In this document: positions 1,886-41,340 of the stretch, in pieces | Layout of the letters: every line of letters begins with the position of its first letter | Numbering within the stretch: the stretch's first letter is position 1 | Assembly (NCBI GenBank): GCA_032622095.1 | Contig: CP136061.1 | Coordinates: 38,259,797 to 38,323,796, forward strand | Origin: Siphonodentalium dalli | Taxonomy: Eukaryota > Mollusca > Scaphopoda > Gadilida > Siphonodentaliidae | Length of the DNA: 64,000 bases | Direction of reading: 5' to 3' | Notes under the pieces: model-generated | What the model was told of the DNA's origin: nothing | Database searches by the model: none | Seen by the model: the letters and a program-made list of their open reading frames with translations, nothing else | Position numbers and translations under genes: made by a program

Positions 1886-4800
1886 CTGGAAAAAAAAATA
1901 CAAGACACCATGATCATTGACATTAGCGTCGTCACCACCTTCAGAAGATACCGTCACCGCCATAAGTAGAAGCAACACTACCACGACCAATACCATCACG
2001 TACCGCCGTTGCCCAAAACTCTATTTACTATACCACCACAAAAACAAAACAACACTTGATCCCACCATAAAACCGCTATCATCAAGTTTGGATATCAAGA
2101 GACCATTGTTACAGAATCACGCTGGCCAGGAATTATTATGGCCATTCTTTTTTTGGCCATTTCTGATTTGTTTATGGTCCATTTTTCAGACACTTTCATA
2201 AATTGAGACAATTATATAAACACCACGCAATATAACTGAAACAAGAGGATTCTGGGATATCCCCATGGTGAAAATTGAAATATGGGCAGGTCGGAAACCC
2301 AATTTTGAGAAAAAATGTGATGAACCAACAAATTACTTGACAATTCTAACGAACGACGGACGGAAATCAAAACATTTTCAGATAAAGAAAGAGGGACAAC
2401 TCTTGAACGTAAAATGTGAACAACGTCAGCGAACCCTCTTTGGAAATCCCTCATGGTGCCAAATTTGTATACTACATTTCATTTAGAACCGATAACCCAT
2501 GGTTCAGATATAAGAGCGGACCGACGGAAATCCAACATTTTCAGATAAACAAAGAGGGATAACTCTTGAATGGGAAATTATAATCAACGTAAATGAACCC
2601 TCTGTTGAAAGCTCTCATGATACCAAACTTTTATACCAAATTTCATTGAGAACCGACCACCCATGGTTGAAACATATGAGCGGACGGATGGACGTCCGGA
2701 CGGACGGCTGGACGTACTGGCCAAAGTATACTGCACATACACATGCATACTTGTGGGGTGCGATCTTTTGTTTGAGTAAATTGTGGGGTGCAACCCACAA
2801 CTGACGATTTTTTAAAGAGCGTATTTTTAAAGAGCGGACGGACGGACAGACGGACGCATGTGATCCAGTATGCCCCCATCTTTTGGGATGGGGTATAAAT
2901 GTGAGTTGGACAATGGAAATGCGCACGGATAGGAACCCCAATAAGTCTCGTCGGCAACGAATATCAAAGCAGTGTAAAGTGCTGTCACTTGATTAAGAAC
3001 GTACACCGTTCTAACGTTTAATAGTCATGGTTTTGGCAAGTAAGCATGCGTGGTTTTGGATAAATTGTTACGAAACTGCTGATTACCAGTAAATATTACC
3101 CATGTGGATAGTTTGTTTATATCTAATTTGTAACTCTTTATGAATGGAGGAAATTAAAGCATATACATATCTCATTGAGATCTGGCGATAACGTGATAGG
3201 CGATTGTACAATATATATAGCTTTGAAACTTTTTGGCCAATAAGTTTGGCCAAATGAGTTTGTTTTTGGCCATCTGAATATGTATATACATGTATATCCC
3301 AACTAGAATATAATAGCTAACGACTAAACAAAGCTAGTGTTACTGCTATGTAAAGCATTGCTCCATGTTGCGAGGTGGTTTATTTTGCAAAATAAACTTT
3401 AGATTTCACTTTGCCAATATCTTTCATTTCTCAGATTGCTGTATGAAGATTATTTGCCTTCCCATAACTTATCACATATACCAAATGGGGTCGAATTGTA
3501 CTTTTATGTGTGACTAATCCGGGAGACCTGTGGCTTACAATGCGTTTAAAGAACCCAAGGATTCAAGAATATCAAGGTCCCCCATCTGTCATCAGCAAGG
3601 TGGATTTGACAATCCTGCCCAACAAAACTTATACAACTGGACAACAGTTCGAGCTAATTCATGCTAATGGGCTGCTTTAATGTTATGTATATTACTGATG
3701 TCTTTGCTGTGTAGTTTTGGTTTACGTTTTGTCCAGGCATACTATTCCACAATTATTTCGGCAATATTCCTTGACATTAACAGCAGCGCACTACCTGGAC
3801 TGTGTTTTAACCCTTTACCCAACAGAACGGCCCTGTGTAAATGCATTCTCTTATATATGCGAGTCGACCATATGTCGCCTCGCATATATAAGAGAATGCA
3901 TTGGCTTAACACATATTAATTGTTAAAAAATGTAAAAAAAAAAAAAAAAAAAAAATTTTTAGGCCAATGCATTCTCTTATATATGCGAGGCGACCTATGG
4001 TCGACTCGCATATATAAGAGAATGCATTGGCACAGGGCATAACTGTAACTATCACAATGTGGTCAATGAGCCGGTTCCAATGTTATGTATATTATTGATG
4101 TCTTTGCTGTGTACTTTTGGTTTACGTTTTGTCCAGGCATACTATTCCACAATTATTTCGGCAATATTCCTTGACATTAACAGCAGCGCAATACCTGGAC
4201 TGTGTTTTAACCCTTTACCCATCAGAACGGCCCTGTGCCAATGCATTCTCTTATATATGCGAGTCGATCATATGTCGCCTCGCATATATAAGAGAATGCA
4301 TTGGCTTAACACATATTAATTGTTAAAAAATGTAAAAAAAAAATAATAATTTTTTTTTAGGCCAATGCATTCTCTTATATATGCGAGGCGACCTATGGTC
4401 GACTCGCATATATAAGAGAATGCATTGGCAAAGGGCATAACTGTAATTATCACAATGTGGTCAATGAGCCGGTTCCAATGATATCCATATTTTTATGGTT
4501 CTATTGAGACAGAGCCAATATAATTTAGGCTGTTGCAGCTTTATTTGGCCGGGTTTGGCCGGTTTGTTGGGTAAAGGGTTAAACCACTACCTAACCCCAT
4601 AAATTTTCGACCATGCGCATGACTGGTCTCTCTTATCTTGTTATTCGTATGGCATATACTAATGTATACGATAATGGGTAAATCCTCCCACATTATAGAG
4701 GAGGGAAATCGCCGACAAGAAAGTTCGGGTAGTATGAGAAATAATCTCTTTAAAAACACTTCCACCTTCAAGGCTCAAGTTTAAAAAAAATACTTCTTCA

Positions 4801-5560
4801 AATATCTCCGTTATTTCGTCAATAATGCTATCCTCAATCCTAGCCGCGCGTGGCGCCTGTTTTTGCAAACAAGACATTTTAATTGCATTTATGAAACTTA
4901 CTTCCATATATTCACCGCCAATTTTAATATGTCGGTGGTATTTTCCGTGTCTTGAGAGAAAGTCAGCTGTTTTTGCATCGTCTCCGAAAGCCGCTATCAT
5001 GTCGCCTATTCTCGTGATCACTTTTCCCGCCTGCACATTCAGAAGGTCGGTGGTCTTCCGTTCATTCACGCTCTTACCTTTAAACTTCGCAAATAGATCT
5101 TGTAGCTCTGGATATGTGTCAAACAAACTGAAATCGTGAATTTACACTTGTGACAAGGGCGCGACGACAGGGGTTGTGGACCCCCCCCCCCCCAAAAAAA
5201 TAATTTGGCCTGAATTTTCAATAGTTAGGAATGTTCATACCTGATAAAACTGATGGGTTCTGATATTTTTATTTTCTAATTAGTATTTACTATGACATTT
5301 GGACCAATGTCGAAAATGTCCCCACTTTTGGTTGTATTGTATTGTTTATTTGCAAAGTCAACATCAAAGTTGCAACATGTTACAACGTATATACATATAT
5401 ACAAACAATACATAACATGTATGTACATCAATACATTCTTCCATCATATTATAATGGTATTAATAATAAAGGCAAATAATGCTAATACATTAAGAAATAT
5501 GATTTCTTATATTGTATACAAGTCATATAATATTTATCTCCTATATATTTTGAGACTTCC

Positions 5561-5605
<45 letters not shown>

Positions 5606-8600
5606 CGAAAACGGCTGCGCGGATCGAGCTCAAATTTCGAATATAAGTGTAAAAAGCCACGGGGATCGTCGACGTCGCATTTTGGACGAGCTTTGAGCAC
5701 TCATTCTCCACTCCCAATCAATAAAATCACCGCAAACACGGCGGGGGTTAATCAAGTGATAATTTAATGAGCGTTTGTATATGACGCGTCGCTATAAAAG
5801 AGCGTTTGTTTACAATTCAACGCAACGTTATTGCTCGAAATTTAGCATCGACAAAAATTAATTTCTGTTGTCAAAAACATAATTACGTGTTGGACTCTGT
5901 CATTTTAAGAATATGTGAGTATTACACACATACACACCAAGTCTCAACTTAAAATTTTGAAAAATAAGAGTTTTATCGACATAAATCGATTTTAATGGGA
6001 AATCCTATGTTAAAATTTAGCATCTAAAACATTTAATTTCTTCCATCTAAAACATAATTACGTGTTGGAATGTGTCATTTTAAGAATATATAAGTATTAC
6101 ACGCAGTCACACGAAGTCTCAGCTTGAAATTTTGAAAAATAAAAGTTTTATCGACATAAATCGATTTGAATGCGAAATCATGTGTTAATAAATTTTGGGG
6201 CTCAGCTGTTCTTTGTGTTTTCTAAGCGGCTTCATATTGGGCCCCAGTGTTATTATTTTCGATACACTGTTGAAAATTCTATGGAAGCAAAATGGTCAAC
6301 TCGGGACGGGTCAACCGATTGAGCCCAAACTTGCTACCTATGGGTACATTTGTCCCGAAAGTGTCACGGACGGGTCAAATCGTCATCCCGATGAGACATT
6401 TACCTTCAACTGGTCAATTCAAGGTCAAATTAGGTAAAACTGGCGGATGTCTGTACTTTTGTCCGAGGAGTGTTTTGGACGGGTCAAATCATGACCTGAC
6501 CTTGACCTACAAAATTGTCAATTCAAGGTCAATTCGGGTAAAACTTGCCGATTTCCACGAAATCTGGTACAAATGTAGCACAAGTGTCTCGGAACCTGTT
6601 GCAATTGCTTTTTCGAACAAAGCCATGGGACGAATGGCGCCAGTGGCGGGCTAACCTGCTAGTATTATATATAATACAATATAATACTTTAGTCATGGTA
6701 ACTTTTTAAACGCTAAGTTTAAGAAAATTCTCACTCTTTTCAATATACTTATATTTAGCAGTGACAATAATCTGTATAATTTATTTCTGTATGGATTTGC
6801 CCAGTAATACTTCGGGATATATATTTCTCGCAGATCGTTAAGGTCTGTACACAAAATAACAAAATGGTATTTATCAGACATGTTCGCCACATAACGGGCA
6901 TTTCGTGTCTTTACGTGTACGTTTATTCCATTATTATTGGTCTAACAGTTGAAAACCTTGAGGTACCCGTTGGAAATATCCCACTCAGTGCAAGGGGGTG
7001 GACTGTAGTTTCCAGGACTTCGGAACTTCAGTCTAGTTCAACTGGGATGGAGTTGTAAATACGAAGTTGGACAACGCCAACATAGATGTTCTAGTGACCA
7101 TGACATGTTCGTATATGCGCGTACGAATATGTGATTGCTGTTCGATGTATCATATATGGCAATGAATGTGAGCAGAATAAAACAGGGTCACCATTTTCGT
7201 TTCACGTAGAGGCCCTTGAAACAAGTGAACTTGAAATCAAATTGCTCCTGAGTCTTAATATTGTTAGGGAATGGTGTGTTTCCTCTGTTCCAGTGTTTCC
7301 GTCGTTTCAGAGCAAAATAAAAAAAATAAAAATATATAGTCTAACCACTGTCCCAGTTTGTTTCGTGATGTTTACACTGAATCAACTTGAAATGAAATTG
7401 CTCCTGGGTCTTAATATCGTCTCAGAAGAACGTAAACAAAAACTTTAAAAAAATATATAGTCACGGGATGTCTGTTTCCACTTGTTTCCACTTGTTTCAA
7501 GGGCCTCTACATGAAACGAAAATGGTGACCCTGTTTTATTCTGCTCACATTCCTTGCCATATCTACGATGTATCAAAGTATTCATATATGTATTTAATGT
7601 ATATAATTGGGACCACACAACCACATTAGATATACAATTCAATCGCCATTGACACTCTAAGATCTAAGATACATTCTTGTTTATATCGGATTATTTATAT
7701 TCGGTAACCACCCAACCTTCGCTGATAGTATTTGTCATCATGACTCTAGACAACGATGCTCAACAAAGCGGCTTTGGCAATTCCATTTGTACATTATACT
7801 GAATGCAAATTTCAAAAGCTGAGGTTATAAATGTATATATTGCTTTATATAGTACTTCCATGATACATTATCGACCCTTTTGGTTATTCATAATCGGACT
7901 AACTCCAACTAACCAACCAACCGATCAGCCAACTTTTGATTATATTATTTGTCGCTAGAATTTGTGGTCTTTATAGTTGTCGTTTTGCAATATCCGTATG
8001 ATTACGGCTTCAATAAACGAGTCTAAACTAAATATGGACACGCGACCTTTATGTGTATTATTGACCACTGCATATGACCTGATATCAACATAATTAGGTA
8101 TAAACAAATCACAGCAAACATAATCGTATCACTTTACTGCGAGCTGCAATAAGTTTGAACGACACACGGACTCGTATAAGCTATTTGTAATTCTTATAAT
8201 TAGTAGTTATATAATCGAAATGTGTTAAGTTACTGAGCTTTCAACCAATAGCCCAAACATAAATCTGCGCTTCTGCATTAATTTTATCAAACACCACGTG
8301 TTTTAAACTGTCACTGCTACTGACAAAATAGTATACAACTGAAGTAGAAAATTGGCACAACTAAGATATTCGCTATGGTGTGAGTTTTATCAAACACCAC
8401 CGCATATGTCAAATAGAATGACATAATGTTTAACATATGTTTGCAGTTGAAGTCAAAGACAATAGGTCACCTTGGGTGGTGTGACATTCGTTGGTATTTC
8501 ATTTTTTCTCAACCGGTGTGATGTCAGCAATTGCATAAATACTTCCTCCGTTTTGGTAGGATTTATCGGCGATATCCTCACCTAATCGGTCCAATCGTCA

Positions 8601-11600
8601 CGTCTGGGACCAAGTAATTACCAATGTAATTCAACGCATTATCAACACAGGGGAATTGCACCAAACGCAATATGTTAATAATCATGGTGTCAGACAAGTA
8701 AACTAGCTTCCTCGCCACGTTAGATGCCATTGTTTCACTGCAGGGCGGGTTGCAGAGCGTGCATAATCATCACATGGAATCCAGTTCTTGTTGCATAATA
8801 CGTAGAAAATGCACACAAGGAAACTGATCCGACCACTACGAGTGTCAATGTGCCGACACATGCGTAATATGAATGCGCACACAGTATATATATGCACAAG
8901 AGGTGCATTATGCTGTATAACATGCATCTAATAAGTCATAATCATTCATTGTAGCAACCACCCACCGAGGTATATATGCGAGAGTGCTGAATTCTTCGTC
9001 TGAGCTCTGGCCAATTATCAGTATAGGAGGCCGTGCATGCAGTGACCTCCACCATCGAGACCTCTAGATACACGTAGGACATGTAAACATTCGTATCTAG
9101 TTCAGTTTGAACAAAGATATATTGTATTGTCGGAATTATATCATAAACGACAACCCGACATAGTGTTTAAGTTACAACCACCCATCTCCCTCATACCACA
9201 AAACGAAATACAAATACATTAGTTGTAGCATGCTGAACGACATCACACACAACACGTCTAGTGTGTATGGTTTGTTACAGCTGAAGGTACCCTTCATACT
9301 TAAACATTAATGTTTTAACCCTTTACTTAACAGAAGGGCCCTGTGCCAAAGCATTCTCTTATATATGCGAGTCGACCATAGGTCGCCTCGCATATATAAG
9401 AGAATGCATTGGCTTAACACATTACAAATTATAAAATTGTTAAAGAATGTAAGAAAAAATGGTAAAAAGTGTTAAAAAATATTTTTTTTTAGGCCAATGC
9501 ATTCTCTTATATATGCGAGGCGACCTATGGTCGACTCGCATATATAAGAGAATGCATTGGCACAGGGTATAACTGTAACTATCACAATGTGGTCAATGAG
9601 CCGGTTCCAATGATATCCATATTTGTATGGTTCTATTGAGACAGACCGAAGATATTTTAGGCTGTTGAAGCTTTATTTGGCCGGTTTTGGCCGGTTTGTT
9701 GGGTAAAGGGTTAAGACAATGAGACAGAAGGACACACGCATGTGAAGACACATTGAAACATTGAGCATACGTGTGATTTCGTTTCTCAGATTCTCAATTT
9801 GGGAAATGACTGCGGTAATATGTCCATAAATTGTGATCGCCGCGTGTGGCCTGTCAAATTGTGTGATTGTTCCTCTTGCACGCCCGGTTACACGGTGGGC
9901 ATACACACAGGTACCCTGGTGCGAAATCACTACCATGTGTATATACCTTGTATTAAGGTATATAATGATGGTAGTGTTCTCGAACCAGGGGACCTGTGTC
10001 TATACACCTATACGAACGACCCGAGATATGTATTGTCGATGGAGACAATATAGGGAATTAACGACTATTTAGAAAATGTCTGTATAGGGGCACTGACCTG
10101 GTAAACTCATTATCGATAAACAGAGTGTGTCCACTGTGCGAAACATGATATTATGTGCAATATAGGTGATTTCCACGTGAACGGGCTCCCCTAGACGAAT
10201 TAAACGGACGTAGTCATATGGGCTTGCAGCCGAAAAGTCCACATTATGTAATGCAAAGTTAGGAGATGAATTCCACGTTATCTTGAAGTTTGAAAAATTA
10301 AAGTTTCGAGAGTAAGATACAAATCTATTTCAAAAGACCAAACACTTTGAAGTTGAACCAATTATTCAATCAAAATAGCGAGCGCAAAACAAAACACCTT
10401 TTGATATTTATTAAAAAGATTTTGGAAATTTTCAGAAACTCCTGAGTCTTACGCGCATGTTCACATTTGTAGGTGCTCGAGTACACACATGTATGTAAGT
10501 AAATATAAATTGATATACACCATAGACCATAATGTTGGTAAATATATTATCTGATTATGATGAGTAAACAAGTATACATCTATTAAACGCGACATCGATG
10601 TATTATATATATATAGTATACCATGCATTCTCTGCTTAATGATTTGTTGGGTATGTATACATGTACATGTATTGATGATACGTAGTTGTGTCATATGTAT
10701 TGTCTCTGTAATGCCTTTTATGATGACAAGAGTTACTATTAAATTAAATTCAATTGAAACGGCGATGTCCCCCCAAACAGGCACAACATGTTCCCCTGGA
10801 CCACAAGCCCAATATGAACATTATTATGTTGAAATCACATTATAAAGAGGGTGAGTCTGGTAAGTCATGTCGATGAATAAGGTAGATTAAATCATGTCAA
10901 TAATGTGGTCAATATGGGCTTATGTCGTATGGAAATATTCCCATTGTGGACGCCAAAAAACCCCAGAGTTTTATTCCCATATATAGAGCGTGTATTGAGG
11001 TTATATAATTCCAATATGAGCTTATTTCGCTCATTAAAATAAGACCGTTGTGTCGTTATTTTCACAAGAACAGGCTGGTGTGGCACACCTTATTAGTGAT
11101 TAAGTAGTCATTATCGCATGGTTTCGTGCACAAAAGCTACCCGGCATCTCTCAATCGTGCAAAAAGGCACCCATGATCTTCCAAAATGTGCACAAGAGTC
11201 CCACATCATCTCAAAGTGTCGTTCCTTTGCGGCTCAAAGCCACACTCAAAGCGGATGCAATAACCTTAAATTTCCGTTGAAATTTCACTCGAAAATCACA
11301 AATTATGATTGTAATAATAATTAACAGACGACTGATTCAGAATTGCGTCTTTGGTGATATTTTGATATGCTGGGTGACTTTTTGCACATTTGAGAGATCA
11401 TATGTGACCTTTTCTACGTTTGGGATATCATGGGTAGCTTTTTGCCCGAAATCATGCGACAGTGAATAATTCGGCCTTATTAGATTAATTACACTTATTA
11501 GATTAATAAAGGATATACAACGAGTCCTCGGTTAAATTGGGGACGAGTTGTAGATTCTATTTATTACATGATCCAAAACCTCGTCAAAACATACTTAAAT

Positions 11601-14177
11601 CAGCAAATGGGACGCGAAACTAACATCGGCTTCTAGAAGGTACCCTTCAAGTTTGTCAAGTTTGCATGGTATGGTTTGCAGGCATTTTGTCGTAGAAAAC
11701 GATATGGTGCCATAATATGAACAGAAACAAGCACACACAGTGCATCTGTACCACAGCTATAACTACGTGCGAAGTAAAAATCCCTGTAGTTCCACCTGTA
11801 GCAATGCTACCGGAATTTGCCTGTCAATAACATGCAATTATCTCGCAAGAATGAATCATACAAGTGTTAGAAGGCAAATTCCAGTAGCACCGTTAGAAGT
11901 GGATACATAAATTTTACTTCTCATGTCGTTCGATTTGGTAAAGATGCTTGTTATGTGCATGTTTCCATTCATATTCTGGCAGCATGTGGTTTTCTATGAC
12001 GAAATGCCCGTAAAAACATACCGTGCAAACTTGCCAGCGTATGAACGTGCCCTAAGACATGCAATGACATTTCACGTAACTCTGCGTTGTTTGCCCGCGT
12101 AAAGAAATAGTCCTAGATAAAGAAAGACAATTTGGCGTATTTAATGGCGTATATTTAATGACATAACTTTCAAACTCTTCATTCATTATAGTTTGTTGGA
12201 AAAATATTGGAAGCCAATTATTTTGAGACGTAGCGTTGGAAATGTAAACGGACGACAAACCGGAAGTCAAATGTCACCTGGCACTATTTCCTGTTAAACG
12301 AACAATTAATATCGCAATTTAATGAATGGGTTATCGTATGTTTTTCATGACGGGAGCTTCCTGAGTGTTTGCGAAAACCCTGTGCCAATGCATTATCTTA
12401 TATATGCGAGTCGACCATAGGTCGCCTCGCATATATAAGAGAATGCATTGGCCTAACAATTTTTTTATTATTTTTCATAATTGTTAAAGAATGTAAAACC
12501 ATATTTACATATTCACTTTACAGTTGAACACAACCCGATACAGTAATGTAATTGAAAGTCGCAGTCAGACGAGATAATATTGAAATTTTATATTATTTTT
12601 TATAATTGTTAAAGAATGTAAAACCATATAGCATCATGTAATACATTAGAAGTTACAACACGTACATGTACATCAGACGAATACAATCATATCAATACAT
12701 ATCTATATGTGCTCCATGAAACCTTAACAGGACCGTACGAATAAAATCATATCAATACATATCTATATGTGCTCCATGAAACCCTAACACGACCGTGTAG
12801 ATGACAAGTTTAGAGAAATTCGATTATCTGGCAAGATAAATTATATGAACCGTATATACACCATTTCTGTCGACGAAGAGATAATGAACTAATATCGATA
12901 ACATAAGCCATCACATGAACATGTGAAACATTTGTGCTTATAATACTCGAAATTTCTTGTTACACGCACTTGCGAACCTGGCAGTGTCAGTATACAGTGT
13001 TGTCGAAAGTATGAACTATATTGTTTGACATACAGTTACATCTTGATTTAAATTTTAGTGAATATCAAAGCGATTCCAATGTAAGTTATGTTGACAGTAA
13101 AAAAAACCCCTCAATTTGTGTGTGTTTAAGACCCGAGAAAAAACCATTTACAACACGTACATGTAAAGGTCTGCACCCGTGATACTGGTACACTAGGCAA
13201 AATTTGCCCAGAAAATGAAAACAAAAAAATTGTGAACAGTTATATTCTTGGCATCTGGAAATTATAAAAATAGAGAATTGTTTCGAATTAATTTAAATAT
13301 ATGCAGCTGCGGAAACTTGAAATTTGAAAAAGAGCTTCAAAATATTCTACCAGAAAATCAACGCATTAAAGATACGGTTGGCCTTGGCGGTGGGTATCCT
13401 GTGAAAATATTTCCACCCGTCAAAAACCGCCACAAACAGAAAGAACATCAAAATGTAGACAGACCTTGTCCGTATACAAATAAGAAATATCGCATAAACT
13501 GTGTGATATTGACATATGTTTGACCATTGTTATGTAAACAACAGCATAAAAAGTTACTTTCCTGGTGTTTGTTTATATTATGATGGTAAACATAAAGAGC
13601 GTTCTTTTTTGGTGAATTCCTGATATGGAATTAATAAAGAGCGTTTATGCCATTTATGTGTGATTAGCCAGTAGCATTCTGCTGTCTTCTGTAACACAAT
13701 CAGACTCTTGCTTAGGTAAAATATAGTAGGTCTTGATGATAACATGCTGTTTACGCGATGGTCATGGTATATATGAACGAAACTGTATGCGTTTTAATGT
13801 TTTTCTGTTTACGGTGATTGGAACACATATCAATATTTTCGACAACAAAGGCCGCACGTGCCTTTAATATATAACTGACAAATTGTGGTCATCCCATAAC
13901 TGTATTCCGATTTCAATTTTGATTATATATTTTGTATTGCACCACCATCGTATTTAACCACCGTAAAAAGTCTATGTCATGTAATGTTTGTTTTATGATG
14001 TATGTTTCAGAGCAAATAAAACTAAGAATTTTATAATTCCCCGTGTAGTTGCGTAACATCTCTGTTGTCTTACTTGTTGTAGAAAATCTTCCCCTTATCC
14101 TCATTAGATCCACCCACTTTGGCGGCAAACGCCGTCCACGTCGAAGTAATGATCGCCTGCTGCTCTCCGTTAACCAT
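1763..14177 (-). CDS. Globin gene 1, complete, three exons
   Basis: Single-domain haem globin, a reversible O2 binder expected in the cytosol (no signal peptide or membrane segment). Joining 14177-14074, 5127-4902 and 1885-1763 gives 150 residues, the usual globin length. Intron 1 is phase 2 (two bases AA in exon 1, T in exon 2, giving Asn35) and intron 2 is phase 0, matching the ancestral B12.2 and G-helix globin introns. Visible landmarks: Trp14 in helix A, Phe47 (CD1) and Phe50 in the FAKFKGKS motif, Gln67 at E7, Val71 at E11, His95 at F8 (RHGKYH), and the H-helix AAW. All splice sites are GT-AG with strong GTAAG donors. The start ATG has A at -3 and G at +4. Distal Gln instead of His is unusual but known in some invertebrate haemoglobins. 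A tandem paralogue lies at 53-60 kb. Assigning exon 1 across an 8.9-kb intron is inference, but phase, length and helix fit are all exact. Confidence 0.9.
2350..2690 (+). repeat. ~167-bp tandem duplication leading into a GGAC-rich tail
   Basis: Two diverged copies of a block beginning GACGGA-ATCAAAACATTTTCA with AACTCTTGAA and AACCCTCT-TTG. They are followed at 2690-2950 by (CGGA)n-like runs and GGGATGGGGTATAAATG, a layout common in dispersed mollusc repeats. No gene is seen in 2200-2950. Confidence 0.7.
2957..3678. other. Intronic DNA without recognised features
   Basis: Within intron 2 of globin gene 1. No exon or repeat family recognised. Confidence 0.55.
3679..4480 (+). repeat. ~400-bp direct tandem duplication with 4-base microhomology
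   Basis: 3679-4078 and 4079-4480 are nearly identical. The junction joins GGTTCC-AATG inside the MITE to AATG-TTATGTAT of the host flank, so AATG is present at both breakpoints. Differences are a few substitutions and the poly-A spacer length. Confidence 0.85.
3811..4578. mobile_element. piggyBac-like palindromic MITE, tandemly rearranged copy
   Basis: Starts after TTAA (3807-3810) and ends before TTAA (4579-4582). The left end CCCTTTACCCAACAG recurs at 4211, exactly 400 bases later, because a segment containing host flank plus most of the element was duplicated. Four palindromes are present instead of two (about 3836-3904, 3962-4031, 4236-4304 and 4360-4430). Confidence 0.78.
4902..5127 (-). 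CDS. Globin gene 1, exon 2 (haem pocket)
   Basis: 226 bases: one base completing a split codon, then 75 codons ending GGEYME. It begins after a TTTCAG acceptor and ends GAA|GTAAGT. It carries the whole haem pocket: FAKFKGKS (CD corner), VQAGKV (E7 Gln to E11 Val) and SRHGKYH (proximal F8 His). The open frame runs on past the donor to 4659, but that part is intronic. Confidence 0.93.
5562..5602. repeat. AT microsatellite
   Basis: Uninterrupted (TA)n. Similar shorter runs are at 21950-21964, 28957-28982, 29549-29566 and 60218-60247. Confidence 0.95.
5838..6188 (+). repeat. ~175-bp tandem duplication
   Basis: AAATTTAGCATC recurs at 5838 and 6013. Both copies carry CATAATTACGTGTTGGA, TGTCATTTTAAGAATAT and GTTTTATCGACATAAATCGA. 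Confidence 0.9.
7153..7565. mobile_element. Foldback MITE with 8-10-bp target duplication
   Basis: CGATGTATCA occurs on both sides (7143-7152 and 7566-7575). The arms of about 90 bases are inverted copies, including AGCAGAATAAAACAGGGTCA and CACGTAGAGGCCC. The duplication length fits hAT (8) or Mutator-like (9-10) insertion. The ~230-bp centre holds two diverged copies of a CTTGAAAT-AAATTGCTCCTG segment and no gene. Confidence 0.7.
7576..9318. other. Intronic DNA without recognised features
   Basis: Inside intron 1 of globin gene 1. Short frames near 8700-8930 lack codon bias and plausible splice context. Confidence 0.5.
9319..9710. mobile_element. piggyBac-like palindromic MITE, intact reference copy
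   Basis: Flanked by TTAA on both sides (9315-9318 and 9711-9714). The ends CCCTTTACTTAACA and TGTTGGGTAAAGGG form terminal inverted repeats beginning CCC, as in piggyBac elements. The length is 392 bp, the same as the copy at 40949. The core 9350-9567 has a ~68-bp near-perfect palindrome at each end (GCCAATGCATTCTCTTATAT...). No coding capacity. Confidence 0.8.
9907..10002. repeat. Foldback repeat, family with GTATTAAGGTA centre, copy 1
   Basis: Arms ACACAGGTACCCTGGTGCGA and its imperfect complement surround a centre GTATTAAGGTA. The same arm core (CCTGGTGCGA, ACC-AC-CAT) and the same centre occur at 32985-33068. Confidence 0.65.
10003..11112. other. Intronic DNA without recognised features
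   Basis: Inside intron 1 of globin gene 1. The 107-codon minus-strand frame near 10461-10784 is AT-driven and not protein-like. Confidence 0.5.
11113..11460. mobile_element. Foldback element with repeat-bearing arms
   Basis: The left arm starts TCGCATGGTTTCG and the right arm ends with its near-complement CGAAATCATGCGA. Each ~100-base arm is built from about three copies of a ~32-base unit (GTGCAAAAAGGCACCCATGAT-like). The AT-rich centre has no gene. Confidence 0.55.
12384..12452. repeat. Solo copy of the palindromic module
   Basis: One palindrome of the GCCAATGCATT...AATGCATTGGC type preceded by CCCTGT, followed by the usual AT-rich spacer (AATTGTTAAAGAATGTAAAA). The partner palindrome and any TTAA/TA terminus are missing. 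A second copy of the spacer lies at 12585-12630. Confidence 0.7.
12678..12796 (+). repeat. 60-bp tandem duplication
   Basis: Two copies starting CGAATA-AATCATATCAATACA at 12678 and 12738, with only a few differences. Confidence 0.9.
13370..13863 (+). mobile_element. 494-bp TTAA-flanked MITE, copy 1
   Basis: Flanked by TTAA (13366-13369 and 13864-13867). The ends read AGATACGGTTGGCC and the complement of AGGCACGTGCGGCC. It is about 90% alike, by eye, to the reverse complement of 49366-49860. It contains paired AAAGAGCGTT motifs but no gene. It is distinct from the palindromic TTAA family. A piggyBac-like or Kolobok-like origin is suggested by TTAA alone. Confidence 0.75.
14074..14177 (-). CDS. 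Globin gene 1, exon 1
   Basis: Encodes helices A and B: 34 codons starting MVNGEQQAIITSTW and ending in KIFYN plus two bases of the next codon. The donor AA|GTAAGA follows at once. The invariant helix-A Trp is residue 14. No upstream in-frame ATG competes, and the TATA box and initiator sit 26-60 bases upstream. Confidence 0.88.
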
Positions 14178-18706: not shown

Positions 18707-20199
18707 TTTCCACTAATTAATATGAATCCTTCAGCTCTTGTATTATCTATTAGTCTTCCTGCCATCGGCTAATTTTTGCTGAACATTCATAGGAATAATA
18801 GGCCATTTTCATGTACACAATCATAACTGAGTGCGAGAATCCCTTTAGTATATAACGTGTTAAAACAGCTGGAACAATTACTGATCAGAGATTTAGGGTG
18901 GATACACACATGCATGTAATATCTGTAATTATCGTGTATTTGGCGTTATACATGGATTATACAGACAATGTAATATGTGTCCACTGACAACCCAATCATT
19001 GCCGACGTGTTGATCGCATTGAGATTTAGTTCCAATTAAGTCAGAATGTAGAGAAACCGCTATCTTGGACCGAGTCGCCAGGCCACTTAAAATAATTGTT
19101 CGTGTGATAACCCATATGGTGGACGTTTTATTTAAATAATTACCAGTCCTCTCTTGATATTTATAGCAGTGGAGGATCAGGATTTCCCGACCCAGGGGCT
19201 ATATATGATCCCCGACTTGGGGCTATATATGATCCCGAAAGCTACCAGGCGGGGTGGCTATCTCTGAGCTATTTAAGTAAAACATATTATATAGTACCTT
19301 CTGGCCCAGATTATTCCGACCGATACATTCAACTAAGTCCCTTAGCGATTTGAAGCCAAACAAGCGTCATGGTCGAAAATGTTCTATATCAAGTCTGTAT
19401 ATGCCAGACGTGTCGCTTCTGGTGTTCGTGCAATAATAAAATGCCAGATATCACACAGACTTGAATAATTTCCGCGTCCGTAAGAGAAGACATGTTTTGG
19501 ACTGGCCTTAAATGTCCTGATAGCAGACAGTTTGACTTCGATTACCACTACTCACTTGTCTGGCCTGTTAACAATGAACTGCTCGCGCGCAGGTGATTAA
19601 TATTGTCAATTATTGGTGTGGCCATGTAAAATACATGTATTTTACATACATAAATTACATGCATGTGTGTATCCACCCTTACAGACTATACATGGTCTTC
19701 ACATCGATATTGTCCGTCATTGTCCGTAATTGTCCGTCATCACAGCAGGTACATAACGCTCTGGGGGTAAATTGGAGTAAGTAATAAGCTGTTTGAATCT
19801 GTGACAGAAGTGTTTGCTTATCGCCGAGCACATTAACGTGGCAATGATCTTAACTGTTGCTATTGTATCTGAATGATACTCGCGTACAACTGTATCTAAG
19901 TTGATATTCCTGATGTTCAGTCACGAATACAGATACGTTACGTTTCACACGTTAGGGGTTCCGTTATATATATTCACCAGCCGAGACTAAGCACCCGGTG
20001 TATCTATAGTATCTGATCTCGTTGAGAGAGAATCAACAATCTTATCCATATAATACTGCCGATCATGCGTGTTGATACCCAGCCTGTTCATATAGCTCAT
20101 ATTAAACTTATTTAAAAAACACAAAGAAACCCACTGCATATAGACATTATTTAAATCTGAATTACTACGGTGTGTTACTTGGTCATTTTTCTCCACACT
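18707..20199. other. Intergenic, no gene recognised
   Basis: A two-copy GGGGCTATATATGATCCC repeat at about 19195-19240 and a 22-base perfect palindrome around TACATGTA near 19626 are the only structures seen. Confidence 0.5.
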
Positions 20200-20600
20200 A
20201 TTAGATTCATCGTATATCATGGATATGATTATATATAAATTTGACGAACATCGACGACCAAAATTCATTTGATCAATTTGTGCCACCTCCCCCATCACTG
20301 ACTAGAACGGCACAAAATTTTCGTCCTTAAACCAAACGATTAAATTTCTCGTATTATCATGGAGATGATTATATATAACTTTAATGGAATTCGGCAAAAA
20401 AAAACTTTTGACTATTTTTCTGCCCCGCTCCTTCAAAGCCCCCGACTCGAACGGCAACACTTTTGCATCTTTATACCTCACAATTAGATTCCTCATATAT
20501 AACGGCGATGATTTTATATAAATTTGATGGAAATCGGCGCAAAATTATTATTACCGATGCCAGTGCCCATCTCCCATAGGGACATATCTTGAAAACGAGT
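20200..20600 (-). repeat. Degenerate ~147-bp repeats, with another copy near 21690
   Basis: Blocks around ATCATGGAGATGATTATATA and AATCGGCG-CAAAA recur at about 20215, 20355 and 20500, and again at 21700-21760. No gene. Confidence 0.7.
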
Positions 20601-22026
20601 ACAAATATAAATTAAACAAATATTTAAATTTAAAACATGCGCGTCATTTTAACAAAACGCATCGCTATATATACCACACGTTACAAGTGAGATCACATAA
20701 TCAAATACCTCCTCACATCTAAGGCCATAATTCACAAACGCGTTATAATATTATAATATACAAGTCGTTCAAAAACTCTTCAAAAACTTCGAAACCAGAC
20801 GCGGAACAGACCGGAACATGGGTACCACTTTATCACAAGAGAGGAGAAAATCCATGTCGCCCCTCTTTTCTTATAATGAACGATAATTATTTTCAATGTA
20901 TTATATATATCCCATCATCGTATATTGAAATGCAGATTAATATAGTTATTACAATTCAAATAATCTAAATTATTGTATGGCACATGCGTGGTGGACATTT
21001 AGAAATATAGGTGTTGAATCGTTGACCAAATAAATGTACATGTATGTGTATATAATGATATGAGTATGACAAAGATTGTCATTAATGTGTTTGTTAGTTT
21101 GAAATCGGGGGTGGGTTGGTGGGTTCAGATACAAAAGTAATGTGGGTGTGATAAATTGTGAGCCTCAGGAGTTGGACGTTATATGTTGGGCTTTTTAATA
21201 TACAATGCGCGGTTTACCAGTGTTCGTCTACTGCCAAAATTATGTGTTCGGTCTTGTGTAGTAATATGGTTTCAAATATTTATATCTCAGTTGATTCAGG
21301 CATGGGCAGACTAAAATACAATGATATTCATCCCCTAAAGCATCTTTGCATAAAGTACATAATCGTTCGTTGTATGTGTAACTGTCCGCGAGCTAGTTTT
21401 GACTGACAGTCAGTGGTTTCTGGTACCAAAGCTGATAAGAGGGAACACACCTTGAATTTATTGCAGAAATGTAGAAAAAGAGTGGCGACTTGCATTCAAA
21501 TATGCCATTGATTTTGGTAGATTTGTATTGTAACGTATGATATCTATAAGTTCTTTGAAGTGGCGTGCTCGTTTTAAATTTAAATAGTTTTTAATTTATA
21601 TTTTTACTCGTTTTAACGAGACGCCCCTATGTTCTCTCCCTCGGTCACACCCCTGGTTCGAACGGCAACACATTGACATATTTACACGCCATTATATTCA
21701 TCCTATCATGGAGATGATTATATATAAATTTTGTGGAAATCGGCGACCAAACAAAATCAATTCCTCTTTTACTGCCCCTTGTCTCGGACAGTGTCAATTT
21801 AGAAATGCTTATCCCGGACCATTATCTTACTTGTAAACGAGGACTCCTGTAGATCCCGTTTGTTGGCATTTTGATGATCCCCTGTTCATTTCTATAGCGG
21901 GCAGACGGACATACTTTTGCAAATATAGATAAATGTATACTGTATATAAATATATATATATATATCATTCTGTCCGTGGTTGGCGGATATATTCTGCTGC
22001 AATGAGTTCTTTGTGACGATAATCGG
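20601..22026. other. Intergenic, no gene recognised
   Basis: Besides the repeat copy near 21700 I see only AT-rich sequence with short chance frames. Confidence 0.5.
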
Positions 22027-22996
22027 GTTCTACTGGGGCTGTTCTGTGGCTGTTATACTGGGGCTGTTCTACTGGGGCTGTTCTGTGGCTGTTCTACTGG
22101 GGCTGTTCTGTGGCTGTTATACTGGTGCTGTTCTACTGGGGCTGTTCTGTGGCTGTTCTACTGGGGCTGTTCTACTGGGGCTGTTCTGTGGCTGTTCTAC
22201 TGGGGCTGTTCTGTGGCTGTTATACTGGGGCTGTTCTACTGGGGCTGTTCTGTGGCTGTTCTACTGGGGCTGTTCTGTGGCTGTTATACTGGGGCTGTTC
22301 TACTGGGGCTGTTCTGTGGCTGTTCTACTGGGGCTGTTCTACTGGGGCTGTTCTGTGGCTGTTCTACTGGGGCTGTTCTGTGGCTGTTATACTGGGGCTG
22401 TTCTACTGGGGCTGTTCTGTGGCTGTTCTACTGGGGCTGTTCTGTGGCTGTTCTACTGGGGCTGTTCTACTGGGGCTGTTCTGTGGCTGTTCTACTGGGG
22501 CTGTTCTACTGGGGCTGTTCTGTGGCTGTTCTACTGGGGCTGTTCTGTGGCTGTTCTACTGGGGCTGTTCTGTGGCTGTTCTACTGGGGCTGTTCTGTGG
22601 CTGTTCTACTGGGGCTGTTCTGTGGCTGTTATACTGGGGCTGTTCTACTGGGGCTGTTCTGTGGCTGTTCTACTGGGGCTGTTCTACTGGGGCTGTTCTG
22701 TGGCTGTTCTACTGGGGCTGTTCTGTGGCTGTTCTACTGGGGCTGTTCTGTGGCTGTTCTACTGGGGCTGTTCTGTGGCTGTTATACTTGGGCTGTTATA
22801 CTGGGGCTGTTCTGTGGCTGTTCTACTGGGGCTGTTCTACTGGGGCTGTTCTGTGGCTGTTCTACTGGGGCTGTTCTGTGGCTGTTATACTGGGGCTGTT
22901 CTACTGGGGCTGTTCTGTGGCTGTTCTACTGGGGCTGTTCTGTGGCTGTTCTACTGGGGCTGTTCTGTGGCTGTTCTACTGGGGCTGTTCTACTGG
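22027..22996 (+). repeat. 25-bp minisatellite (about 970 bp)
   Basis: Built from two words, CTGTTCTACTGGGG (14) and CTGTTCTGTGG (11), mostly alternating to give a 25-bp unit, with occasional doubled 14-mers and a TTATACT variant. Since 25 is not a multiple of 3, all three plus-strand frames stay open for about 300 codons. These translations (WGCSVAVLLGLF...) are by-products. There is no start context, splice site or codon signature. Confidence 0.95.
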
Positions 22997-23193
22997 AGAT
23001 TTTATTTCTGAACATGTCTGAAATAGACGTACTTTTAGTAGTCACGTTAATTTCACCGCTATATATGGACCTAACATTAAATAAAAACGTCCCGGTACCG
23101 ATATCACGATAGAGTCGTGCATAATTGGCTTGTCGAACTGATACGGACGACGGATAGCCCAAAATAACGCAACACCAGAATATACAGAACATA

Positions 23194-23651
23194 TGTGACC
23201 CGCCATATCAAGTCCAGTCGTAAGTCGGGATATTTTTACCCTGTGCCAATGCATTCTCTTATATATGCGAGTCGACCATAGGTCGCCTTGCATATATAAG
23301 AGAATGCATTGGCCTAACAATTTTTTACAATTTTAATAATTTGTTCTTGTATTCTTTAACAATTTTATAATTTTACCCACACAGAGCCCCAGACAAACAT
23401 GAGCAGACGACACTCTTCTATATGCTTCTGTATATGTGTGGCGCTCCCTACAGGGTATTGGATGTTTTTTATTTTATGTCCTAAAAATTGTAAGAAACAT
23501 TTATTTAATAAAAATGATAAAAAATTGTTAGGCCACTGCATTCTCTTATATATGCGAGCCGACCTATGGTCGACTAGCATATATAAGAGCATGCATTGGC
23601 ACAGGGTAAAAAAATCCCGACTTACGACTGGATTTGATATGGCGGGTCACA
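23194..23651. mobile_element. TA-flanked element with the same palindromic core
   Basis: The termini are TGTGACCCGCCATATCAA and its complement, extended to inverted repeats of about 50 bases, with TA on each side (23192-23193 and 23652-23653) as for Tc1/mariner-type insertion. Inside lie the palindromes found in the TTAA MITEs (23245-23313 and about 23529-23603), bounded by CCCTGTGCC and GGCACAGGG. The outer ends share nothing with the TTAA family. Confidence 0.7.
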
Positions 23652-23775
23652 TATTTTGTCGATATAACATATGGAGGGTGTTTTGCCTGTGTATATCTCG
23701 CTTATCATGTCACCTGGTTGGATCGACCAATGAGGACTCTCCGTTGGTAGAGGCATATCAGGAGACATCGGGTCG

Positions 23776-27025: not shown

Positions 27026-27037
27026 ACGCTTTCTTAA

Positions 27038-27367
27038 CCCTTTACCCAACAAACCGGCCAAAAACGGCCAAATAAAGCTGCAACAGCCTAAATTATCTTG
27101 GGTCTGTCTCAATAAAACCATACAAATATGGATATAATTGGAACCGGCTCATTGACCACATTGTGATGGTTACAGTTATGCCCTGTGCTAATGTATTCTC
27201 TTATATATGCGAGTCGACCATAGGTCGCCTCGCATAGATAAGAGAATGCATTGGCCTAAAAAAAATCTGTTTTAACACTTTTTTACCATTTTTTCTTACA
27301 TTCTTAAACCATTTTATAATTTGTAATGTGTTAAGCCAATGCATTCTCTTATATATGCGAGGCGACA
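27038..27367. mobile_element. piggyBac-like palindromic MITE, right-truncated
   Basis: TTAA at 27034-27037 is followed by CCCTTTACCCAACA and the usual internal sequence with one full palindrome (27187-27256). The second palindrome stops midway at GAGGCGAC and runs into unrelated sequence next to the RT fragment ending at 27405. The right TIR and flank are lost. Confidence 0.75.
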
Positions 27368-28812: not shown

Positions 28813-30033
28813 CAATGTGCTATGTGTGGCACACGTGTGTGCCTTCTTATCCGGATGTCGATGGGCCTCTATGTGTCTATGTACAAAACCATGTTTAAAC
28901 AAAATCAAACCAGACCATGCGGTTTTGATCAATAACTTATCTTCCTCATATATGAAGCTATATATATATATATATATATATATTATTATTTATTATTATT
29001 GTACTTTATTTCAGACTCGAGGTCCATATATGAATTTGAAAGTAAACAAAAAACCAAAATAAACTAAACATAGTTTCGAATGAGTCAAGTACGAAACCGA
29101 CTAGTTGAATAGAATTCTCGAACTAAGATGTCCGTTGGCCATTTCCTTGGATTCAGTATTATGTTCTTCGCGATATAATTTGGAAAATCAACTCTGAATG
29201 ACGAGTAACTTCAATGCTTTGTCGAAAGTTTCTCACAGTCAGTAACGCGAATACCAAAACTACGCTGTATGTAGCGAATTATATCGTTTGTGGTAGTCTC
29301 CGGTGTCAATCTGGAAATGAAAACAGGTTTTCCGACGACGAACCATCGGTTTCAATTCCGACACACACTGCTCTGATGTTCCAAGCACTAATCTTTTCCG
29401 CGGATATTCTCCTCGATTGGGTCGATTCCGTCTTGATGGTTCAAATCCTTTCACTACCTGGGTTTGCAAAACCTGTGCATATGATGCGTTCTCCAGTGGT
29501 TTGGTAGACTCTATATCTTGTTTATTCGTTTTCAGAACTTTCTTTTCTTTTTATATATATATATATATCTGGGGAAGTGTTATGTTGCACCAACACACCA
29601 CTGTCACATTCCTATAACCGAGTGGATGAATTAGCCGACTAAAAGACAGAACATGTTATCTTCGGATGTAGCCTAGTATGTTCGCGGATAGAGCACGTAT
29701 ACATATTTATCTTTTTTCCTGTGATGTTTTGTATAAGAATTATCATTGGAAATTGCTCGCTTGACCGCCAGCATGTGCCATGGTATCCATTTTTCTCTGT
29801 TGAATGGTTTGACAGAGGTTAAGACCCCCCCCCAACAAAACAAATACTATCATTGAAGACAAATACATTTATGATGCATGACACGTTATACTCATCATCG
29901 GGTCTCGTGAATGTTTGCACGAGTGGAGCTATAATCGCAACAATTATCTCTGTCTGTGAACAAAGCAAAAACAGCCAGTCCGCATAAAATCACCGGGCGC
30001 GGAATGCTTAATTAAATTATAATTAATCCCTTA

Positions 30034-30748
30034 GTGTCGGCGCACACGGTCCCGGTTGTCCCCGGTTTATCCCGCAGCTGGGTAAAACGGGGACAACCGG
30101 GATCGTGTGCGCCGACGCTTTGGGCCGGTTTTTGTCGGATCTGATTTAACCGGACCGATCAAACTGAGTTTGATTTCATCCGTAAAAAACGGCTCGTGAC
30201 GATGGCAACGCGCGTGTTTTGCTTGCCACATGACCAAAACATCATTCAAAATGTCGGAATAGTTAGCAGCGACCGCTATTCGAAAATTATGTCTAGAATT
30301 CTGACAAATCGACAAGTAACAACTGCTGGTAGACCTATGGGCAGAAAATAGGTGCCCGTATATAGATAGTAATCGCAACAAGAGGGCGGTAACTGTGGAC
30401 AGGTAGTTTACGCCAATTTACGGCTATTGGCAGTATTCACAGTATTTCCCGTAACCTCAAATTCAATATATTATTATTAATATTATATATTCATTCAGTT
30501 TATTATTAATAAATATTAGTCTTTAGAAATACATATTAATATAAATCACCACGACTAGCTATAGTAAATGTCTAGATCGGCTGACCACACCAGTTGGCTA
30601 TTTACTACAGTGACCATCTATAGGCATAGCATGCATATGACCGGAGTGAAAATCGGACTCGTGTGCGCTGAACCCCCCGATTTTATCGGGCCCGATTTAT
30701 CCCGCAGCCGGATTTACCGGACACAATCGGGATCGTGTGCACCGACAC
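30034..30748. mobile_element. PIF/Harbinger-type MITE nested in the 3.96-kb element
   Basis: TTA occurs on both sides (30031-30033 and 30749-30751), the typical 3-bp PIF/Harbinger duplication. The termini read GTGTCGGCGCACACG and CGTGTGCACCGACAC. Each end is itself a foldback: 30034-30118 pairs with itself around CCCGCAGCTGGG, and 30660-30748 pairs around CCCGCAGCCGG. The 715-bp body has a minus-strand open frame (30067-30381) with no recognisable domain. Confidence 0.75.
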
Positions 30749-32158: not shown

Positions 32159-32163
32159 ATCAG

Positions 32164-32984
32164 AGCATGTTCTGATCAAACTAGAGCAGCGCCTGCAATG
32201 GATGCAGTCGGTTCATTGGTTGGCTTGTAAAAATGACTGGATTAATATGGTAATGTTTAAAAGCGTGTTAGCGCGAGTAATTGGTTAATTGTTATATAAA
32301 ACTGGCTATTATTATTTAATAAACATTGAATTCATTACTCGGGAGAATTCCGTGATTGGACGCGATGAAACGAAAAAATGGCTCACAAAGTCACTTAGAT
32401 CGCGCAACTTCGAGTTGGGACCCTCAACTACAGTGACAAACATTATTAAGTAACAGGTAATAACTAAGAAATATGTTACCTGCACTGCATGTGTTTTCAA
32501 TGTTCTAAACTTCCCAGTCACAACATAAAAAGTTCCCGGGTTTTGTACCGTTCTCTATACGGGCATAGCTGGAGTTGAGATTCATGATCTAGGGTGTAAC
32601 ACGTCGAAGAAATGGAAGGCCAAATATTTAAAAATTCGAATTGTACGGACAGTATATTTCGTGCAGAATGACCGCTTCACAAATAACGAAAGAAATAGTT
32701 TTACTTTTGAACATAAAAAATAATCGTTGCAATAAATTCCGAACTCAATAAACTCACATTCCTGCTGTCATGTAAACATAATATGTTACCTTTTCATTTA
32801 TGGTATGGATATTATACAGATCTGATGTCGTCCGCGGGTTAGATACGGAGATTTGTCGCCTGTCGAGACGGAATGTCACCTGAAGGCTTTTATGTCCGAG
32901 GGTGACATTCAGGTCGAGAGTGCCAACATATTTATTATCCGATACATGTACCTAAATCGCATCCCATGAGTGCTTTCGTTCACA
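32164..32984. other. No gene recognised
   Basis: Right flank of the 3.96-kb element, with no exon-like segment. Confidence 0.5.
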
Positions 32985-33068
32985 TGTCCTCTGGTGCGAC
33001 AACCCCACCATGAGTGTCCACAGTATTAAGGTAGACACTCGTGGTGGGGTTGTCGCACCAGGGGACCC
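32985..33068. repeat. Foldback repeat, family with GTATTAAGGTA centre, copy 2
   Basis: Inverted arms around CTGGTGCGACAACCCCACCA with the loop GTATTAAGGTA. It shares arm and centre sequence with 9907-10002 in spite of unrelated flanks, so this is a dispersed foldback family. Confidence 0.65.
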
Positions 33069-33461
33069 GTGCTTTCGTTCGCAGTTAGTTTTATTAATGA
33101 CATTTTTTGTACTTGTTTAGGTGCATGGAACTGATAAGTTAGTATTCGGGCGTTATGCCAACTGGAGAAATGTAACATTCTACAAACATCGCCGAAAATT
33201 TTCAGGAAATCGACCATAATGCTCCGTAGAAAACATCGTCTTAACTACGCTTAATTCTAAATATTTACATCTTGATTCGGGACGCAACTATCGGGGATAA
33301 ACTAACATAAATTATTTCGCCATTGAGAGTCATTGCATGTAGTTAATATATAAGAATGACGGTGTGTTTTGTCAATTCGGATTAATATTCCAAAAAAGTT
33401 ACTAGTATAAGAGTCGCTTATGTCCGATTTTCGGCTCCCGTGGGAAAATCATGAACAAATA

Positions 33462-35070: not shown

Positions 35071-35761
35071 TGTAATACATGTAAACAGACTATAAAAATG
35101 TCGTCTTATATAAATTAATGCGCTATGTCCCTGATGAGTAGTCGCGCAAAAATAGACACGAAACACTAGCTTAACCTTAAAGTGACTATCCGAATTCAAG
35201 CAGTGTAGGGCACCACGATTAACATAACGCTACCTCCAGTCGTATGCTGACGGTTGGGTATGCATACACCATTTTATATACAAATACGATAGTTTAAAGG
35301 AAGTGGTATGAATTTTCAACAAAATATACTTTTTTATTTTCTAACTATTTCCTTAAAGAAAATTGGAATTAATCGGTGTTGGAAATGAGTGGGATCATTA
35401 TGTAAGGTATTTACATCTAACTTGATCCAGATAATGTCAACTTAATCCAAGATGGCTTCAAAAATGGCGGCCAAAATTCGATAATTTTAGCCCCTTTCAC
35501 CCAATTACGTTTCTGTCATGCAGAAGGAGAATGAAGAGACTAATTTGCTTCTTCAAAGTAAATACTCGCCATGTTATAACACATTCCTGTTAGTTGTCTT
35601 ATCGCAATGACTCAAAATGCGATTTAATATGACAATTATTTTCTAAAATAAGCATCGTGAAAATTCGCCGAGCGATATATTTGTGTATACATCAAATAAT
35701 ATGTCCTCTACAGGAGAACGATATTTCGGTGTTAGATGTATGAATGAATGTACTCTATTAA

Positions 35762-36102
35762 CCCCTGGCCATAGATCGCCTCGCATATATAAGAGAATGC
35801 ATTGGCTTAACACATTACAAATTATAAAATTGTTAAAGAATGTAAGAAAGAATGGTAAAAAGTGTTAAAACAAGATTTTGTTTAGGCCAATGCATTCTCT
35901 TATATATGCGAGGCGACCTATGGTCGACTCGCATATATAAGAGAATGCATTGGCCAGGGCATAACTGTAACCACCACAATGTGGTCAATGAGCCGGTTCC
36001 AATGATATCCATATTTGTATGGTTTTATTGAGACAGACCCAAGATAATTTAGGCTGTTGCAGCTTTATTTGGCCGTTTTTGGCCGGTTTGTTGGGTAAAG
36101 GG
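35762..36102. mobile_element. piggyBac-like palindromic MITE with left-arm deletion
   Basis: TTAA is present on both sides (35758-35761 and 36103-36106), and the right TIR TTGGGTAAAGGG is intact. At the left only CCC of the terminus remains before the sequence jumps into the middle of the first palindrome (CATAGATCGCC). About 60-80 bases including half a palindrome were lost internally. Confidence 0.75.
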
Positions 36103-36106
36103 TTAA

Positions 36107-37431: not shown

Positions 37432-37491
37432 TTACGCGTGCTAATTCAACTTCCTTCATTTCATTTGGTTTATGATAACGTTCTGCCTCAG

Positions 37492-38352: not shown

Positions 38353-38477
38353 CGGCAACACCGTGGGGTACATGGAGATTTAATACCTGGATGTCTCTTT
38401 TCGAATTCCTCGGCTCCGCCTCGGGGTTCAAAATCGACATCCATGTATTAAATCTCCATGTACCCCCGATGTTGCCG
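38353..38477. repeat. Foldback repeat with ~50-base arms
   Basis: CGGCAACACCGTGGGGTACA and its complement enclose a short loop around GAATTCCTCGGCTCCGCCTC. The arms include ATGGAGATTTAATAC. Both strands show the same open peptide WRFNTWMS, a result of the symmetry and not a gene. Confidence 0.78.
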
Positions 38478-38559
38478 AATATAACTAATATTATACTATC
38501 AATGGTCCATAACATGCCATCCGTCTTCATACCAAGACATCTTTCGTATTAAATTAACA

Positions 38560-40610: not shown

Positions 40611-40757
40611 CTACGTCACCAATGTAATCTCTGAACGGTCGCTTCAGACATTCGGGAACCTACGTCACCAATGTAATATCTAAACCGTCGCTTCAGACGT
40701 TCAGGAACCTACGTCACCAATGTATTATCTAAACAGTCGCATCAGACGTTCGGATAG
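40611..40757 (+). repeat. 49-bp repeat, three units (family also at 48.1 kb and 0.7 kb)
   Basis: Three units beginning CTACGTCACCAATGTAATCT and ending with a CGCTTCAGACGTTC-like segment. The same unit, also in three copies, is at 48142-48288, and one diverged unit is at 678-727. All three loci continue into related downstream sequence (ATATTTGTTGCAAGAATT-like). Confidence 0.88.
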
Positions 40758-40948
40758 CTGCTTTATGAAACGCATGCAAGTAATATTTTTGTTGCAAGAA
40801 TTGTACTTACAGGTGAAAGGAATTATGGGTTTAAAAAACAGGTAGACCACCTAGAGCAGGACAGATTGTCTACTATTATATACTAGGGGATTGCAGGAAA
40901 ATAATGTGAATAATTAGTAAATTATTAGTGCCCCTTTAAGTCATTTAA

Positions 40949-41340
40949 CCCTTTACCCAACAAACCGGCCAAAACCGGCCAAATAAAAGCTTCAACAGCC
41001 TAAAATATCTTGGGTCTGTCTCAATAAAACCATACAAATATGGATATCATTGGAACCGGCTCATTGACCACATTGTGATGGTTATAGTTATGCCCTGTGC
41101 CAATGCATTCTCTTATATATGCGAGTCGACCATAGGTCGCCTCGCATATATAAGAGAATGCATTGGCCTAAAAAAAATCTTTTTTTAACACTTTTTACTA
41201 TTTTTTTTACATTCTTTAACAATTTTATAATTTTTAATCTGTTAAGCCAATGCATTCTCTTATATATGCGAGGCGACCTATGGTCGACCCGCATATATAA
41301 GAGAATGCATTGGCACAGGGCCCTTCTGTTGGGTAAAGGG
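40949..41340. mobile_element. piggyBac-like palindromic MITE, full-length copy
   Basis: 392 bp with CCCTTTACCCAACA at the left and TGTTGGGTAAAGGG at the right, inserted in the opposite orientation to the 9319 copy. The left flank is TTAA; the right flank reads TTAT, a one-base decay of the duplication. Open frames inside (CILLYMR...) are translations of the palindromes and not genes. Confidence 0.78.

Follow-up and report, generated by a model that had tools for sequence, protein, structure and literature searches.

A palindromic core common to TTAA- and TA-flanked MITE families in the genome of Siphonodentalium dalli

Related systems and the shared core

Non-autonomous DNA transposons usually agree at their ends and differ inside. 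In the Foldback and Galileo elements, the inverted repeats are the ends of elements that belong to one superfamily. The core described here is carried by at least four families of MITEs (referred to as A, B, C, and D), whose ends are unrelated or differently composed; it recalls Foldback and Galileo (PMC3573991) by its long, internally repetitive inverted repeats and its structural fluidity, but its inverted parts are internal and common to several families. Another partial parallel is provided by the conserved domain of the V-SINEs in the MER6 DNA transposon (PMC6887750), where one domain is present in differing elements and has been spread by a burst of a DNA transposon. Unlike the present core, this domain comes from SINEs, i.e., from retroelements (PMC6887750).

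The closest precedent is that of the CMITE families of Acropora corals, and the present case is a striking large-scale instance of this known kind. CMITEs are TTAA MITE families with piggyBac-type ends and differing terminal repeats, whose internal region is common to several families, is more conserved than the ends and is of unknown origin (Wang et al., 2010; PMC2872659). The same study mentions CMITE tandem arrays and piggyBac transposons in the Acropora genome, and an estimate of about 1,600 CMITEs in A. millepora (PMC2872659). TTAA sites, piggyBac-type ends, a common internal region, tandem arrays, and the presence of piggyBac in the genome are all found again here, and the internal region is likewise more alike between families than the ends are. 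The two systems are likened by their organisation and not by their sequence: in contrast to the CMITEs, the core here is made of a 69-bp palindrome, usually as two inverted copies around an AT-rich spacer, its exact arm occurs 270,224 times, as compared to about 1,600 CMITEs in A. millepora, and one carrier, family B, has TA-type flanks and unrelated ends, so that TTAA target sites are not common to all carriers. With respect to the CMITEs, the palindromic structure, the TA-type carrier, and the much higher copy number are new.

Families A, C, and D also resemble piggyBac-type MITEs in general by their TTAA flanks, their CCCTTT start and the transposase domains present in the genome, and differ from them by an internal sequence that is common to several families. 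A palindromic module common to TTAA and TA MITEs was not found described in the literature searched, a scope outside which most subscription journals and the repeat databases lie, and the letters of four motifs were not found printed there. The usual rule, according to which ends are alike and insides different, is inverted here at a very large scale and across TTAA-type and TA-type elements. With 156,842 exact core boundaries in one genome, this amounts to a natural experiment in which to ask if the winners among MITEs are decided by their internal sequence, and one that bears as well on the assembly of new MITE families from old parts.

The palindrome unit, its carriers, and its abundance

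The near-palindrome is present as 15 units, 13 full-length and two half-length, in the window, i.e., in the whole 64-kb stretch of DNA that was analysed, where the carriers are five family A elements, one TA-flanked element (family B), and one broken element (Table 1). As claimed in the initial annotation, units are mostly found as inverted pairs with limits CCCTGTGCC and GGCACAGGG; the full core runs from the outer boundary CCCTGTGCC through a palindrome, an AT-rich spacer, and an inverted palindrome to GGCACAGGG. The consensus of one palindrome type, referred to below as the young type, has Watson-Crick complements at 32 of its 34 position pairs and departs from this at an A/A within the 3-base centre and at one T/C adjoining the central 5-bp stem. 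The T/C non-pair confers a polarity on the unit, which is kept in all seven pairs of the window and is broken in one sampled element outside it (C1_137524). When folded as a single DNA strand, the core at 9339-9567 reaches -98.6 kcal/mol versus a mean of -20.4 for its shuffled versions (z = -22.8). A structured RNA is unsupported by an Rfam search of the window, in which no family reached its gathering score, and a read-through Pfam scan of positions 20000-23000 returned no match.

The five TTAA-flanked elements that had been listed in the window are all present, but they are not equal: two are complete, two are damaged, and one is duplicated internally, over ~370-400 bp that take in the upstream flank (3679-4048 versus 4079-4446). 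In addition, the palindrome at 12384-12452, previously taken for a lone copy, is preceded by end sequence of family C and hence belongs to a truncated C element. Further inverted repeats were observed outside the module units, at 7127-7589, 20575-21631, 30028-30124, and 32981-33071, and are possibly other MITEs or foldback elements. The window also contains long minisatellite-like arrays in which several reading frames are open (21950-23112, 42987-48045, and 60973-62712), as well as two globin-domain exons (Pfam PF00042), both on the minus strand, at 4659-5138 (E = 2.4e-9) and 59910-60272 (E = 1e-8); lying ~55 kb apart, these possibly form part of one multi-domain globin gene or of a cluster.

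Table 1. Elements carrying the palindrome unit in the window
Feature	Position	Strand	Palindromes and remarks
Family A element, TTAA ends, internal tandem duplication	3807..4582	+	3837-3905, 3963-4031, 4237-4305, 4361-4429
Complete family A element, TTAA at both ends	9315..9714	+	9345-9413, 9493-9561
Truncated family C element, single palindrome	12343..12500 (right limit approximate)	+	12384-12452; formerly regarded as a solo copy
Complete family B element, TA at both ends	23192..23653	.	23245-23313, 23532-23600
Family A element, one end lost near the centre of one palindrome	27034..27367	-	27187-27255; 27335-27367 (half)
Family A element, reduced at its left tip to TTAACCC, which joins the first palindrome at its centre	35758..36106	+	35768-35806 (half), 35886-35954
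Complete family A element, flanks TTAA and TTAT	40945..41344	-	41099-41167, 41246-41314

In the whole 2.23-Gb genome (nine contigs), where copies were counted by exact pattern search, the 27-bp palindrome arm has 135,127 forward and 135,097 reverse occurrences. A chance origin is excluded, since ~4e-7 exact arms would be expected genome-wide at the same base composition and the reversed pattern, used as a control, has no match in the genome. At two exact arms per unit, these numbers correspond to ~135,000 perfect units, or ~0.42% of the genome, and units in which one arm or both are exact number between ~135,000 and double that. The density of palindromes is higher in the window than in 20 arbitrary 10-kb loci, which together contain 25 palindromes, confined to seven of the 20 loci. 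No exact arm was found in the viral contigs, a set from which records close to the window's genome may be absent. On contig C1, module copies were seen to be evenly spaced by ~14.6 kb between 735 and 780 kb, and by ~11.2 kb between 794 and 921 kb; this even spacing suggests that the elements lie within large tandem arrays.

That the core is common to elements with truly different outer termini, as first noticed in the window, is borne out by the comparison of the TA-flanked family B with the TTAA families A, C, and D. The latter three have TTAA ends starting CCCTTT, of the piggyBac type, and the termini seen in them (CCCTTTACCC, CCCTTTCATG, and CCCTTTSAGTG) show a CCCT or CCYT start; for Kolobok, another TTAA superfamily, 5'-RR ends are given (PMC9587614). 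Family A elements have TTAACCCTTTACCCAACAGAAGGG at their left end and a long right arm that terminates in GGTTTGTTGGGTAAAGGGTTAA. Family C is characterised by ends of the TTAACCCTTTCATGACGGGAGC types, mostly another palindrome centre, and sometimes 97-bp tandem units, and is probably older than the other carriers, judging from its sequences. Family D has ends of the TTAACCCTTTSAGTGCCA types, and the D elements read contain a single palindrome. TTAA is found at both ends in 12 of 14 rows for family A, in six of seven for family D (one of the seven being without palindrome), and in part of the rows for family C; exceptions to this double TTAA are the window element at 40945-41344, C1_740713, and C1_212032. 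Family B is symmetrical, with TA followed by TGTGACCCGCCATATCAAATCCAGTCGTAAGTCGGGA and a T-run. Its ends start with TGTGACCCGCC and its flanks are mostly TA, with TA/TA target sites in four of five complete elements and TT in one; in the element of the window, the terminal repeats are 37 bp long (23194-23230 and 23615-23651). The TGTGACC ends of family B are not known to fit any familiar transposon type.

Carriers could be followed genome-wide through the two to six letters that precede each of the 156,842 exact boundaries, on which the junction labels rest (GG for A-left, TTTA for B-type, and CATATA for D-type). These three labels, which do not extend to A-right and C junctions, identify 45,184 A-left, 25,271 B-type, and 13,964 D-type junctions, and the remaining 72,423 boundaries carry no label. 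The initial annotation had proposed beforehand that the TA-flanked copy be checked for being a local chimera, and the 25,271 B-type junctions rule out this origin for the TA form. Exact B termini number 13,257 in the genome. For the stretch spanned by the list of junctions, 51 of these termini are listed; an exact B junction lies next to 38 of them and is missing at 13, two of these 13 having an exact core boundary beside them. Conversely, no more than 38 of the 100 listed B-type junction places lie next to an exact B terminus; three of the junction places that were fetched (L052-L054) show B ends to either side. A foldback-like repeat with CACCCTCTGGGGACCTCATTCTGC in both orientations was also observed at 7700-8700 of locus L036 and at other loci.

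A probable passenger core and competing readings

The best reading is still that a cassette was exchanged among families of elements, which had been one of two origins initially suggested for the core, and families C and D also carry the cassette. The module is probably a passenger, i.e., the internal core of non-autonomous MITEs, taken up by a few founders and amplified in trans, rather than a transposon itself. Its source would be the older TTAA family C, whose palindromes are diverged (C-type copies differ by ~9% from their consensus); this direction, from C to A, B, and D, is drawn from divergence among five copies, and a lineage outside the sample could alter it. A sub-lineage of C would have gained the present palindrome type; one C-ended element that carries the young type was found (C1_153452). 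New ends would then have become attached to the core in a few rare events, for which the likely route is a template switch or a recombination accompanying the repair of a gap, and in which the DNA would have broken preferentially at the centre of a palindrome. Finally, each founder would have been amplified in trans by the transposase recognising its ends, namely piggyBac transposases for A, C, and D, and a postulated TA-type transposase for B.

Several observations made on individual copies bear on such a scenario. Truncation breakpoints tend to lie close to the centre of the palindrome, at most 6 bp away in 11 of 17 cases (p = 0.004), or in 11 of 19 (p = 0.014) once two further units are counted; they come from a hand-made list that draws on 27 partial units, depends on BLAST detection, and omits a unit at an N stretch, a unit at a locus edge, the copies from duplicated loci, and two unclear units. 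Internal re-duplications are seen at L053 and L060, and collapse to one palindrome in the family A element L051. The existence of a D element without any palindrome (C1_137524:2121-2308) indicates that D ends exist apart from the core, and one B terminus without adjacent core was read (L036:8126); as these are one case each, the order of events rests on few. No hybrid with ends from two families was seen by eye among the annotated elements, which form a small sample. Relatedness extends to the spacers of all four families: these AT-rich stretches show best between-family matches of 78-96% over 40-132 bp, and the match between the A and B spacers scores 65 bits versus 35 bits for the best of 200 block-shuffled controls.

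Another possibility, to be taken as tentative and on the doubtful side, is that the palindrome pair aids transposition or escape from silencing in cis, whether as a site for a transposase or a host factor or as a hairpin that favours excision, so that founders holding the pair win whatever their ends. An alignment of 13 of the 15 family A elements, from which two near-duplicates were dropped, speaks to this point. The palindromes hold fewer variants common to two or more elements, with 1 such column among 138, than does the right arm, with 12 among 157 (p = 0.0035, a value to be used only as a guide since the elements are related), whereas private variants are equally dense in both (12 of 138 versus 15 of 157 columns, p = 0.84). 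Resident copies therefore mutate alike everywhere, and the uniformity of the palindromes seems to have been set among the source elements, either by constraint or by recent replacement. A role in cis would agree with constraint, as it would with the palindrome consensus being the same in A, B, and D despite their differing ends, and with the two complementary pair changes by which the old and young centres differ. However, uniform palindromes can also be explained by a recent capture from one source, the 13 elements that show the shortage of shared variants are not independent, and a single palindrome is found in the D elements read and in the collapsed element L051. It is quite unlikely that the pair would be a portable transposition enhancer for the transposases of two superfamilies, with selection at the level of the sources keeping the palindromes identical; if true, elements acquiring the palindrome pair would win the amplification race while their ends and arms diversify.

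It could also be considered that A, C, and D form a single lineage, in which the ends diverged by drift and the core was kept, and that only B took the core from outside. All three families indeed start with TTAACCCTTT or nearly so and have the boundary, the palindrome, and the spacer in common, with both palindrome types being represented in C. This descent is nonetheless unlikely: drift alone would not spare the core, one D-ended element is devoid of it, and BLAST searches with end probes of each family (E up to 0.05) gave no match at the elements of the other families, although the palindrome and the boundary are nearly identical across families.

A core that is itself mobile and was inserted several times into other MITEs, the second origin initially suggested, is highly improbable, even if its boundaries CCCTGTGCC and GGCACAGGG are sharp and common to the carriers, and TA precedes and follows the core boundaries in the B element of the window. 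Indeed, 95 of the first 100 consecutive boundary places on contig C1, a series that includes tandem arrays and is not a random sample, belong to family A (34), B (25), C (8), or D (28); these assignments were made by junction for 65 places, as opposite-strand partners less than 450 bp from a labelled boundary for 15, and by reading the letters for the last 15. The rest consists of three unread places, which sit in one tandem array, and of two places without family (L056 and L059), which are duplicates of each other; the flank of this duplicated locus matches none of A-D, as a mobile core would predict, but its other half is lost. Among these 100 places, no core was shown to be free-standing and no insertion of the core in unrelated DNA with its own target-site duplication was found; consistent duplications flanking the core were not seen by eye in A, C, or D either.

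Lastly, it is hardly credible that hairpin pairing continually corrects the arms of resident copies by intra-palindrome conversion, as had been envisaged from their near-perfection, since none of the 24 changes in 37 full young-type copies and none of the 31 changes in five full old-type copies is mirrored in the opposite arm, and since the T/C non-pair is unrepaired in all 37 young copies, including one that has G for C and still no Watson-Crick pair. The young-type sample corresponds to the 37 of 50 units that are exactly 69 bp long, near-identical array copies at C1_540608 beyond 2400 being left out, and 23 of these copies are identical to the consensus. Pairing may still have mattered once, in a founder where one arm was perhaps copied, given that the two arms match each other more closely in the young type than they do in the old consensus, and that the centres of the two types differ by complementary changes. 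The alternative that had been offered for the near-perfect arms, recent activity, fares better, in that the recent amplification of uniform sources explains them more readily.

Transposase sources in the genome

Amplification of a passenger core in trans calls for transposases able to recognise the ends of its carriers. The piggyBac transposase domain (PF13843) has at least 128 matches in this genome, from 116 scored of 649 candidates, with many open frames of 500-720 aa, and was found in none of 14 control genomes; the piggyBac transposases of the genome could thus move families A, C, and D. Among the 25 longest frames in ~300 kb, inspected by eye, none was recognised as a DNA transposase and some are LINE-like. 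Long LINE-like reverse-transcriptase frames, also judged by eye, were observed at loci L048 and L032.
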